64,000 nucleotides of DNA, taken from the NCBI RefSeq assembly GCF_010747475.1, contig NZ_VSLZ01000002.1, positions 434,001 to 498,000 on the forward strand, read 5' to 3'. A model generated the notes under the pieces. The model was not told the origin of the DNA. It ran no database searches and saw nothing but the letters and a program-made list of their open reading frames with translations. This document shows positions 22,983 to 54,810 of the stretch, in pieces (the stretch's first letter is position 1; every line of letters starts with the position of its first letter). This stretch comes from Halorussus sp. MSC15.2 (lineage in GTDB: Archaea; Halobacteriota; Halobacteria; Halobacteriales; Haladaptataceae). The translations under genes and the position numbers were made by a program.

Positions 22983-23816
22983 ATGGCAATCCACAGCGAC
23001 TGGGGAGACTGGCTCCCGCGCGCGGTCGAAGACGCCGACCCCGAGGGCATCGCGGTCTGGTACCTCGGCTGTAACGGCTTCGTGCTGAAGGCCGCGAACA
23101 CGACGCTCTACATCGACCCGTACCTCGGCACCGGCGACCCGCCGCGGACGGTCCGGATGGTGCCGGTACCGTTCGACCCCGCCGACGTGGACGAGGCGGA
23201 CGCGATTCTGGCGACGCACGAGCACACCGACCACGTTCACGGTCCGAGCCAGGCCCCGATTCTCGAATCGACGGACGCCACCTTCCACGCGCCCGACGAT
23301 AGCCTCGAAGTGGCGCGCGAGGAGGAGAACTGGACCGACGAGTGGGACGTGCGCGACGACCAACTCGAAGCAGTCGCGGAGGGCGACACCTTCGAGGTCG
23401 GCGCGTTCACGGTCCACGTCGAACCCGCCCACGACCCCGACGCGACCCACCCTGTCAGCTACGTCGTGGAGTACGACGGCCGGACCTTCTTCCACGGCGG
23501 CGACACCAAACCGAGCGACGAGTTCGCCCGCGTCGGCGAGGAGTACGACATCGACCTCGGCGTGCTGGCGTTCGGGAGCGTCGGTCGGATTCCGGACAAG
23601 GAGACCGGCGAACCCCAGCGCACGCGGTGGTACAACGACGAGAATCAGGCGGTCGAAGCCGCCAGCGACCTCCGGTTCGACCGCTTCCTGCCCAGCCACT
23701 GGGACATGTGGAAGGGGCTGACCGCCGACCCGACCGCGCTCCACGACCACGCGCGGAGTTTCGATTACCCCCAGCAGTTGGAAGTCGTGGAGATTGGCGA
23801 CCGCGTGGACGTCTGA
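22983..23816 (+). CDS. MBL-fold metal-dependent hydrolase (UlaG-like)
   Basis: 277 aa. Metallo-beta-lactamase fold with ATHEHTDHVHGPS (HxHxDH, near residues 78-83), PAHDPDATHPVSY and FFHGGDTKPSDEF metal ligands, ending in LPSHWDMWKG. This pattern is closest to the L-ascorbate-6-phosphate lactonase (UlaG)/YtkL branch. The natural substrate in haloarchaea is not known. It starts 48 bases after the preceding gene, so it may be the second gene of that transcript. Confidence 0.85.
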   Translation: MAIHSDWGDWLPRAVEDADPEGIAVWYLGCNGFVLKAANTTLYIDPYLGTGDPPRTVRMVPVPFDPADVDEADAILATHEHTDHVHGPSQAPILESTDATFHAPDDSLEVAREEENWTDEWDVRDDQLEAVAEGDTFEVGAFTVHVEPAHDPDATHPVSYVVEYDGRTFFHGGDTKPSDEFARVGEEYDIDLGVLAFGSVGRIPDKETGEPQRTRWYNDENQAVEAASDLRFDRFLPSHWDMWKGLTADPTALHDHARSFDYPQQLEVVEIGDRVDV

Positions 23817-23916
23817 AATCCGATTTTCGACCCGTTTTATTCTCCTCCGGACTGCAACCCTTCCCGTCCTGCTCTTTCCCGACGAAGGTTCAAATACGAG
23901 GACGGGACGAAACCCG

Positions 23917-23999
23917 CCCGGACGCCTCGTGCGGTCGCCCGGAAGTCGGGGCCGGGGACCGCCAGTCCGACTACCTCGAAAGAGCTGAGCCAATTGAAC
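23917..23999 (+). ncRNA. Candidate structured ncRNA, copy A
   Basis: A predicted hairpin spans 23919-23969. The outer stem is CGGAC/GTCCG, then there is an asymmetric loop (7 nt against CA), a GCGGTC/GACCGC stem, a CCCGG/CCGGG stem and an AAGTCGGGG loop. The same structure with a changed base pair (C-G to U-G) recurs at 54176-54225. Both copies share CCGGGGACCGCCAGTCCG exactly and a GAGCCAA-type tail. A TATA-like TCAAATA at 23890-23896 lies about 29 bases before the hairpin. It sits in a gap between converging genes, where a protein leader is unlikely. Transcription is inferred and no known RNA class is assigned. Confidence 0.55.
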
Positions 24000-24012
24000 G
24001 AGAGAGCGTCCG

Positions 24013-24996
24013 CTACACCCAACAGAGCGACGCCACGCCCGCGGGCAGTTCACCCGCCTCGACCCACTCGCCAGAGGCCCGGAGAATCACGCTCCCGCCG
24101 TTCGTGCCAGCGAAGACTCGCCCGTCGGCGTCGGCGGTCCACGATAGCACGACTTCCTCGGGCTGGCCCGGATAGGGGACCGATTCGAGGGTGTCGCCGT
24201 CGTTCTCGGACTCGAACAGCGCCGCGTCCGCACCGCGCGCGCCCTCCCACGTCCCCGGCGAGGACTGCGCCGCCGCGGCGTAGAGCGTCCCGTCGTGCGC
24301 GAAGGCCTCCCGGAAGTACGTTTGGTCCACGTCCGAATCGAGCCGAAGCCACATCTCGCCCGCGTCTCCTGTCCGGTAGAGACCGCCGCCGCAGGAGGCG
24401 ACGTAGTGGTCCGGCCCGCGCACGAGGACGTGGTGTACGTCGTCGTGGACCCCGGACCGGCGCTCCGCCCAACGCTCGCCGCGGTCCTCACTGACGTGGA
24501 CGCCGCCGACTTCCACGCCCGCGACCACGCGGTCGGGGGTCTCGGGATGCGCGCCGAGACTCCGGACGTGGGCCTCGTCGCGGTGGCGCGGCGTGTGCCA
24601 CCGGTCGCGCGACGGGAGGTCCTGAAAGCCCGATAGCTCCCGCCACGTCTCACCCTCGTCTTCCGAGACATACAGATGAGCGGGGTGCGTCCCGGCGTAC
24701 AGGCGCTTTCCGTCGAGCGAATCTCGACGATGTTCGTCGTCCCCGCGGGATGACTCACCGCCAACAGGGTCGCCGAGAACCGAGTAGACTTCCTCGCGCG
24801 GGACCTCCAAGTCCGTCCACGAGTCACCGCCGTCGGTCGAACGGTACAACCCGGACTTCGTCGCGGCGAACACGCCGTCCCAGCCGTCGAATCGGCGGAC
24901 GCGCACGACGCGCCCGGCGTCCAGCACCCGCTCTGCCGAGTCGAATCGCGGACCGTCGGCGCGGTAGACCCCGTCGTAGGTTCCAGCGAGCAGCAT
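24013..24996 (-). CDS. BNR/beta-propeller repeat protein
   Basis: 327 aa without signal peptide. Repeated propeller blades with Asp-box/BNR motifs: LYRSTDGGDSWTDLE, LYVSEDEGETWRELS, VHVSEDRGERWAE, LYRTGDAGEMWLRLD. The family (WD40/YVTN/BNR, as in photosystem-stability factor Ycf48 and sialidases) forms a circular protein-binding platform. The start MLLAGTYDGVYRADGP at 24996 begins directly with the first blade; the frame stays open upstream but the extension reads as non-coding. Role in haloarchaea is unknown. Confidence 0.75.
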   Translation of the reverse strand: MLLAGTYDGVYRADGPRFDSAERVLDAGRVVRVRRFDGWDGVFAATKSGLYRSTDGGDSWTDLEVPREEVYSVLGDPVGGESSRGDDEHRRDSLDGKRLYAGTHPAHLYVSEDEGETWRELSGFQDLPSRDRWHTPRHRDEAHVRSLGAHPETPDRVVAGVEVGGVHVSEDRGERWAERRSGVHDDVHHVLVRGPDHYVASCGGGLYRTGDAGEMWLRLDSDVDQTYFREAFAHDGTLYAAAAQSSPGTWEGARGADAALFESENDGDTLESVPYPGQPEEVVLSWTADADGRVFAGTNGGSVILRASGEWVEAGELPAGVASLCWV

Positions 24997-53160: not shown

Positions 53161-54102
53161 ATGCCGACGGACATTCCCGGTATCCACCACGTCACGGCCA
53201 TCGCCAGCGACCCCAGCGAGAACCTCGACTTCTACACGCGGACGCTCGGACTCCGATTGGTCAAACAGAGCGTGAATCAGGACGACGTCTCGGTGTACCA
53301 CCTCTTCTACGGCGATTACGGCGGAAGCCCCGGAACGAGCATGACGTTCTTCCCCTACGAGGGCGCTCAGCAGGGCCGCGTGGGCACCGGACAGGTCGAT
53401 ACGACCGCGTTCCTGATTCCGGCCGACTCGGTCGATTACTGGGTCGAGCGATTGGCAGACGAGGGCGTCGAGACCGAGGACCCCCACGAACGGTTCGGGG
53501 ACACCGTGATTCCGTTTCGGGACCCCGACGGTCTGCCGCTCGAACTGGTCGCCCGCGAGGACGCCCCCGCGGGCGACCCGCCGGAGGGACCGGTCCCCGA
53601 GGAACACGCGATTCGGGGCTTCTTCGGCGTGACGCTCTCGCTGGAATCGGCCGAACCGACCGCCACGCTCCTGCAGACGATGGGATTCCGTGAGACCGAG
53701 AGCGAACACGACCGGCGGCGCTACGAGGCCGAGGGCGAACTGGGGTACGTGGTCGATATCCTCGAAGACCCGCAGGCACCACGCGGGCAACCCGGCGCGG
53801 GCACCGTCCACCACGTCGCGTTCCAAGTGACCGACGAGGACCAGTCGGCGTGGCGCGACGTGCTGATGGAACACGGACTCCGGCCGACCGAGATAATCGA
53901 CCGGAAGTGGTTCAGGTCGGTGTACGCCCGCACGAAGGGCGGCGTCCTCTTCGAGTTCGCCACGAAGGAACCGGGATACACGGTGGACGAAGACTTAGAG
54001 GAACTTGGCGAACGACTCGTCCTCCCGGAGTGGTTGGAGGACCGCCGCGACGAAATCGAGGCTGGACTTCCGGAGTTGACACCGGACCAGTCGGCCGAGT
54101 AG
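53161..54102 (+). CDS. Two-domain VOC-family ring-cleaving dioxygenase-like protein (MhqO-like)
   Basis: 313 aa with two glyoxalase/extradiol (VOC) domains. GIHHVTAIASDPSENLDFY, LGLRLVKQSVNQDDVSVYHLF and YGDYGGSPGTSMTFFP are diagnostic of the MhqA/MhqO ring-cleaving branch. GTVHHVAFQV and KGGVLFEFATKEPGYTVDED mark the second domain with its metal-ligand Glu. The metal triad appears intact (His in each HHV motif, Glu in FEF). In Bacillus these genes respond to quinones and electrophiles; a detoxifying role is inferred. Start ATG at 53161. Confidence 0.85.
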   Translation: MPTDIPGIHHVTAIASDPSENLDFYTRTLGLRLVKQSVNQDDVSVYHLFYGDYGGSPGTSMTFFPYEGAQQGRVGTGQVDTTAFLIPADSVDYWVERLADEGVETEDPHERFGDTVIPFRDPDGLPLELVAREDAPAGDPPEGPVPEEHAIRGFFGVTLSLESAEPTATLLQTMGFRETESEHDRRRYEAEGELGYVVDILEDPQAPRGQPGAGTVHHVAFQVTDEDQSAWRDVLMEHGLRPTEIIDRKWFRSVYARTKGGVLFEFATKEPGYTVDEDLEELGERLVLPEWLEDRRDEIEAGLPELTPDQSAE

Positions 54103-54173
54103 CGGACTGTCGGGGGAATTTGGGGAGCGGCGAGTCGGCCGAACGTTTATATCCGAGAACGGCACGAATCCGG

Positions 54174-54250
54174 CCCGGACGCATCGCGCGGTCGCTCGGA
54201 GTCGGTACCGGGGACCGCCAGTCCGTGTAGCCCGCCGGGGCCGAGCCAAA
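54174..54250 (+). ncRNA. Candidate structured ncRNA, copy B
   Basis: Second copy of the element at 23917-23999. The hairpin spans 54176-54225: CGGAC/GTCCG, GCGGTC/GACCGC and CTCGG/CCGGG with an AGTCGGTA loop. A clear TATA box TTTATAT (54146-54152) is 30 bases before the hairpin, so the RNA should begin at or near its first base. GAGCCAAATT follows, as GAGCCAATT follows copy A. Sits between convergent VOC and NUDIX genes, the same gene arrangement as copy A. Confidence 0.6.
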
Positions 54251-54291: not shown

Positions 54292-54810
54292 TCAGCAGTG
54301 TCGGTGCAGAATGTCCGCGTGTTCACACTCGTCGGGCACCGAGTCGAACCACGCGGCGTCGGCTATCTCCGCGTCGTCTCGCCCGAGGTCGTCGCCGAGC
54401 GAGGCGTCGTCGGACCGCGCCTCGAAGACCGCGAAGTAGCCGGAGACTCCTGATTTCTCCGCCTCCGACGCCCCGCGGAACTCGTCGGCCACGAACGTCT
54501 GCTCGGAGACCTCTAGCGGTCGCTCGACGACCGCGTCGAGACCCGTCTCCTCGCGGACCTCGCGCACGACCGCCTCTCGGAGCGATTCGCCGCGTTCGAC
54601 GTCGCCACCGGGGAGCACCCAGCCGTCGCTCCACCGGTTCCGGACGAGAGCGACTCGGTCGTCGCCGTCCCGGACGAGCGCGCCGACCCAGCGGTCGGAC
54701 CCCGCTTCGACGTTTTCGCGCACCGCCTCGAACGCCTCGCTGTCGAGCGGAATCGTCTCCGCGCTGGTCGCAACGTCGTCGCGGTCAGAGAGTCGGTCGA
54801 GTTCGTCCAT
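54292..54810 (-). CDS. NUDIX hydrolase
   Basis: 172 aa. The Nudix box is complete: [20 protein letters not shown] followed by ETGL (Gx5Ex7REUxEExGU). An N-terminal helix (residues ~1-35) precedes the fold, and [18 protein letters not shown] is the strand before the box. It hydrolyses a nucleoside diphosphate linked to some moiety X; the substrate is not known. Start ATG at 54810. Confidence 0.9.

Follow-up and report, generated by a model that had tools for sequence, protein, structure and literature searches.

Two copies of a structured element between convergent genes

The window analysed here, a 64-kb stretch of the Halorussus sp. MSC15.2 genome, contains two related intergenic units, both on the + strand. 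Copy A (23883-23992, from the start of the BRE to the final A of GAGCCA) lies downstream of an MBL hydrolase gene of the beta-lactamase superfamily (22983-23816, +) and is faced by a BNR/sortilin-type repeat gene (24013-24996, -), the stop codon of which is 20 nt from the RNA. Copy B (54140-54248) is found between a gene of the glyoxalase/dioxygenase family (53161-54102, +) and a NUDIX hydrolase gene (54292-54810, -); all four neighbours were assigned by Pfam. As described in the initial annotation, each copy sits between convergent ORFs, and the two share a GAGCCAA tail and an identical block of 18 nt, CCGGGGACCGCCAGTCCG, at 23952 in copy A and 54208 in copy B. The copies aligned over 111 nt with 79% identity (blastn E value of 1e-21 within the 64-kb window). 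The span first given for copy A, 23890-24000, corresponds to a real feature but was a few bases off; homology starts at 23883 and conservation ends at 23992.

Copy A opens with a sharp 5' boundary at a BRE-like CGAAGG (23883-23888, +), the first C of which is 95% conserved in 149 aligned copies. It is followed by the TATA-like box that had already been noticed ahead of the hairpin, TTCAAATA (23889-23896, +; TT 98-100%, A 97% and T 90% conserved), 30 nt before the first stem, P1, at 23919. A further conserved box, CGGGACGAA (23903-23911, +; positions 21-29 of the unit, -17 to -9), is a candidate regulator site. The predicted ncRNA of about 73 nt extends from a predicted start at 23920 to 23992 (+), at the fixed 37-nt spacing described below, and was matched by the covariance model at 23918-23992 with 99 bits. 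On the same strand, P1 (23919-23923/23965-23969, CGGAC/GTCCG) and P2 (23931-23936/23957-23962, GCGGTC/GACCGC) are separated by the asymmetric 7/2 internal loop of the original description (23924-23930/23963-23964, GCCTCGT/CA) and enclose a variable inner module (23937-23956). The 3' part (23975-23992) is made of the P3 hairpin, CUC-GAAA-GAG, with a GNRA loop and covarying pairs, and the tail CUGAGCCA. The replacement of C-G by U-G reported between the two copies exists, but it sits in the variable inner stem, outside the conserved core.

Copy B has the same organisation, with a promoter unit at 54140-54176 (+; BRE, TATA TTTATATC and box CGGCACGAA; position-weight-matrix score 34.3) and a predicted ncRNA at 54177-54248 (+; covariance-model match 54175-54248, 82 bits). 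Copies A and B were the only promoter-unit sites with a position-weight-matrix score above 10 in the 64-kb window.

A multicopy RNA gene family with a conserved core

The proposal that copies A and B belong to a structured ncRNA family held when a covariance model of the RNA part, derived from 26 copies, was searched: it matched 17 of 18 Halorussus genomes, with 1 to 14 copies in each. The genome of Halorussus sp. MSC15.2 carries about 14 (this model found 14). The likeness of copies A and B is not a chance one, because the family recurs across the genome and the genus. At the DNA level, copies were found in all Halorussus genomes examined and almost none in other taxa; exact pattern matches in named genomes (n = 40) came from Halorussus species or from one Halobacteriales MAG, which was counted in the same genus. 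Halorussus genome G009 gave no covariance-model match, so the family is not strictly essential. A broader covariance model detected the RNA in 20 of 392 haloarchaeal genomes and 3 of 95 genera (Halorussus, the genus of G049 and G078, and that of G250), as single copies in two other haloarchaeal families outside Halorussus. Searches of viral contigs and plasmid collections for the RNA returned no match. A multicopy gene family is well supported by these sequence comparisons, and it is previously uncatalogued.

The consensus RNA consists of P1 (CGGAC/GUCCG), the 7/2 loop (GYNYCGY/CA), P2 (GCGGUY/RACCGC), an inner module, P3 with its GNRA loop, and CUGAGCCA. Whole units range from about 90 to 300 nt and the inner module is variable. 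The covariation anticipated in further copies was present above the level of shuffled alignments. Across 104 copies, 98.4% of the helix cells were paired compared with 94.4 ± 0.3% in shuffles, and double changes were seen in 8 of the 14 helix pairs. The covariation score was 0.194 against 0.114 ± 0.005 when shuffled, and none of 500 shuffles reached the observed values, a comparison that is not a strict probability, given the kinship of the copies and an alignment fitted to the model. Controls with slid helices scored at most 0.041. A P3 pair was distributed as CG 96, GC 21, UA 14 and UG 11; P1 contributes little covariation because it is nearly invariant across copies. In the other genera the letters of P2 are replaced and its pairing kept (GGUCGG/CCGACC or GGUCCG/CGGACC), and P3 of G250, GCC/GGC, is intact with other letters. 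The single-sequence folding energy did not differ from that of shuffles (z -0.64) and neither strand was unusually stable, so the claim of a structure rests on the comparison between copies and not on stability. G-U pairs numbered 66 on the + strand and 15 on the opposite one, an asymmetry that identifies + as the RNA strand. Lengths modulo 3 were near uniform with stops in every frame, and the RNA is therefore non-coding. Collectively, these comparisons indicated that the element specifies a functional RNA of the + strand.

The ncRNA-family proposal also stands after comparison with known families. No Rfam match was found in the window at the gathering threshold, and none overlapped the copies at relaxed E-values; covariance models for C/D, H/ACA, SRP, RNase P and riboswitches gave no match, and ARAGORN found no tRNA or tmRNA. 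A search for what might contradict the proposal yielded neither a protein-coding match nor an IS or REP pattern. A possible likeness to the 3' box of cobalamin riboswitches had no model support. The internal loop is not a K-turn, its consensus GYNYCGY/CA being without tandem G-A pairs, and a loop-to-junction pseudoknot (AGUC with GACU) failed when variant junctions were inspected by eye.

The promoter unit and its shared box

Conservation begins abruptly at the unit start, and the order CGA (BRE), TTYAAATAC (TATA) and CGnGACSAA box is conserved. Exactly 37 nt separate the unit start from P1 in 149 of the 155 copies extracted; the RNA genes thus have the promoter of their own expected of ncRNA genes, with BRE and TATA at fixed spacing. 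The published haloarchaeal promoter consensus comprises CGAAA (BRE), TTWT (TATA) and WW at -10 (PMC4983044), and the CGGGACSAA box is extra to it. A possible promoter hairpin (CGGGAC..CCCG) was rejected; its positions vary without consistent pairing, and the motif was therefore read as a DNA site. At the other end no terminator was recognisable: a T-run is absent downstream of the tail, and conservation stops at the final A.

The box was found in 56 of 195 genomes, the reversed-pattern control giving none in each genome listed. The box and its spacing also occur ahead of leaderless protein genes (G003:C6 (L305), L253, L258, L264 and L301) and of a second multicopy RNA family. Among 48 box sites assigned to neither RNA family, 38 are followed by an open frame whose start codon lies at position 38 to 40. 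Leaderless mRNAs are the majority in haloarchaea (72% in Haloferax; PMC4983044), and with start codons at the same spacing this calibrates the RNA start to position 38 of the unit, predicted to be the G of GGAC in P1.

Genes preceded by the box encode a NucS_N plus zinc-ribbon protein, a HerA-like ATPase with a divergent DUF7382 gene, a PLD nuclease, a TctA-family protein, a Cas4-like nuclease, a type IV pilin, DUF7283, DUF6735 and DUF7310; the DUF7310 gene is followed downstream, in the same orientation, by a type II/IV secretion ATPase of a pilus-ATPase operon. In G003, the one genome with every listed box site inspected, the 18 sites comprised 7 second-family RNAs, 2 copies of the Halorussus RNA, 8 protein genes and 1 unclear case. 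We infer that the box is a regulatory element that would place the RNA genes in a type IV pilus and DNA-processing regulon. The domain names point to a regulon for pilus-based DNA uptake or exchange, which suggests that the Halorussus RNA is a possible RNA arm of such a programme. No description of a regulon marked by the CGGGACSAA box was found in the literature.

The second RNA family has the same promoter unit, a GUG-NNN-UGA start, a hairpin and the tail CUGUYNGCC. Copies include L254:1538-1625, L303:274-355, L295:1679-1761 (-) and L341:1501-1579, and one lies in the genome of the window (G000:C2:740468-740554). Its copies, numbering up to 11 per genome, occur in 63 of 146 haloarchaeal genomes and 25 of 57 genera, and Rfam gave no match to it. 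The hairpin loop pairs with the 3' strand, forming a pseudoknot of 5 to 8 bp in 13/13 copies tested. In about 50 copies (for example L335:1501 and L250) the 5' end, at unit position 38, is a start codon, any codon and a stop. It is nearly always GTG-NNN-TGA, with ATG once and TAA once, and codon 2 varies (ACC, ACA, ACG, ACT, ATC, CCC, GCC, CTC), so that it resembles a two-codon reading frame without a leader. It is tempting, though doubtful, to propose one haloarchaeal DNA-uptake/exchange regulon under a single box, the non-coding arm of which would combine the family amplified in Halorussus with this wider pseudoknotted family, whose GUG-NNN-UGA frame could load and release ribosomes.

Genomic positions and possible modes of action

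The copies occupy about 40 positions in all, and the 21 positions with at least three copies hold 131 of the 155. With neighbours called by a simple ORF rule, which may be wrong in single cases, the downstream gene is opposite to the RNA in 121 of the 150 copies for which both neighbours could be assigned, and faces it at 27 of 37 independent positions (p 0.008), unlike the co-directional order expected of a riboswitch or a 5' leader. Facing stop codons are within 60 nt of the element in 70 of 123 cases. The position of copy A recurs with its BNR/sortilin-type facing gene in 11 Halorussus copies.

The commonest position, with 12 copies, faces an aminotransferase gene. Where the RNA occurs as a single copy, in G049, G078 and G250, it faces an orthologue of this aminotransferase (69-71% and 60% identity), the stop codon of which is overlapped by the end of the RNA in G049 and G250. 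Because the RNA faces the same aminotransferase in three families, this position probably represents the ancestral locus, with amplification having taken place in Halorussus. In other genera of the family of G049 the aminotransferase is present and the RNA is not beside it. Inner-module length differs between species at one position, a difference that gene conversion between copies might produce. Some copies (L062, L099, L107, L113, L199, L206) are adjoined by a dispersed element, TTTTTGGTCCAGATTTTT ... AAAAAGGTGG, and then by a second P3 hairpin and tail, a pattern suggestive of duplication of the 3' part of the RNA by an insertion.

We favour, as the rather probable reading, that copy A belongs to a set of about 14 paralogous ncRNA genes forming a trans-acting sRNA or RNP family switched on with the pilus/DNA-processing regulon. 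Each gene would be read from its own BRE/TATA promoter with the CGGGACSAA box just before the start, giving an RNA that runs from P1 to CUGAGCCA. Switching on the regulon would lead to many copies of the RNA being made together. They would act in trans, a common protein binding the constant core (P1, 7/2 loop, P2, GNRA hairpin and tail); copy number would raise the dose, and the variable inner modules may tune targets or stability. The gene family, its structure, strand and conserved positions, the promoter unit and the shared box are seen directly in the sequence; transcription, the protein partner, action in trans and the role of the regulon are predictions.

The facing bias fits either avoidance of read-through or an action on facing 3' ends. 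According to the latter, the RNA would regulate the facing genes in cis or in trans: facing mRNAs that read into an element would bear the complementary sequence as a 3'-UTR tag, and each RNA of the family could base-pair with numerous such mRNAs at their 3' ends. This is consistent with the orientation at 27 positions, the closeness of the facing stops, and the aminotransferase faced in three families with its stop codon overlapped in two. Haloferax sRNA132, which pairs with a 3'-UTR (PMC6560208), offers a precedent. However, no function is common to the facing genes, 10 positions have the opposite orientation, and the bias is also expected if a terminator-poor RNA gene is tolerated only where no sense gene is run into; we regard this explanation as possible yet unlikely.

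The high copy number, the invariant core and the shared promoter box would also suit RNAs that sequester an RNA-binding protein, like CsrB/RsmZ or 6S RNA, and so feed back on the regulon. A decoy of this kind is distinctly improbable, as a repeated protein-binding motif was not seen within one RNA and there is no candidate protein. That the element is a dispersed DNA repeat without RNA function (a MITE, REP or transposon end), as its multicopy, intergenic occurrence close to gene ends could suggest, is hardly credible given the covariation and G-U strand asymmetry, the promoter at fixed spacing from the structure, the orthologous positions conserved across the genus with the same position in other families, and the viral and plasmid collections without a match.

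The RNA resembles Haloferax sRNA132 and other intergenic haloarchaeal sRNAs (PMC6560208, PMC4983044) in being short, having its own BRE/TATA promoter, occurring mainly in one genus and keeping a conserved position. Judged by its description as a single gene, sRNA132 differs from the roughly 14 Halorussus paralogues with their structured core and a box common to protein genes. The family shares with the archaeal RNAs of Rfam (C/D, H/ACA, SRP, RNase P) that it is a structured archaeal ncRNA, but it matches none of them. In bacteria, the pneumococcal csRNAs under CiaR and the Vibrio Qrr RNAs are sets in which one regulator controls several sRNA paralogues, the csRNAs being tied to competence. The Halorussus RNAs are likewise multicopy and putatively co-regulated paralogues, with an archaeal promoter instead; the likeness is one of organisation. 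By this analogy, their mode of working would be most like that of bacterial multicopy co-regulated sRNAs.

To our knowledge, functions have been established for few archaeal sRNAs. A structured family of about 14 copies per genome, with a probable ancestral position in three haloarchaeal families and a shared box, provides a concrete entry to archaeal RNA control, and the box together with the predicted start site makes the hypothesis directly testable. If the regulon is as it looks, the family would also give an entry to the haloarchaeal control of DNA uptake or exchange.
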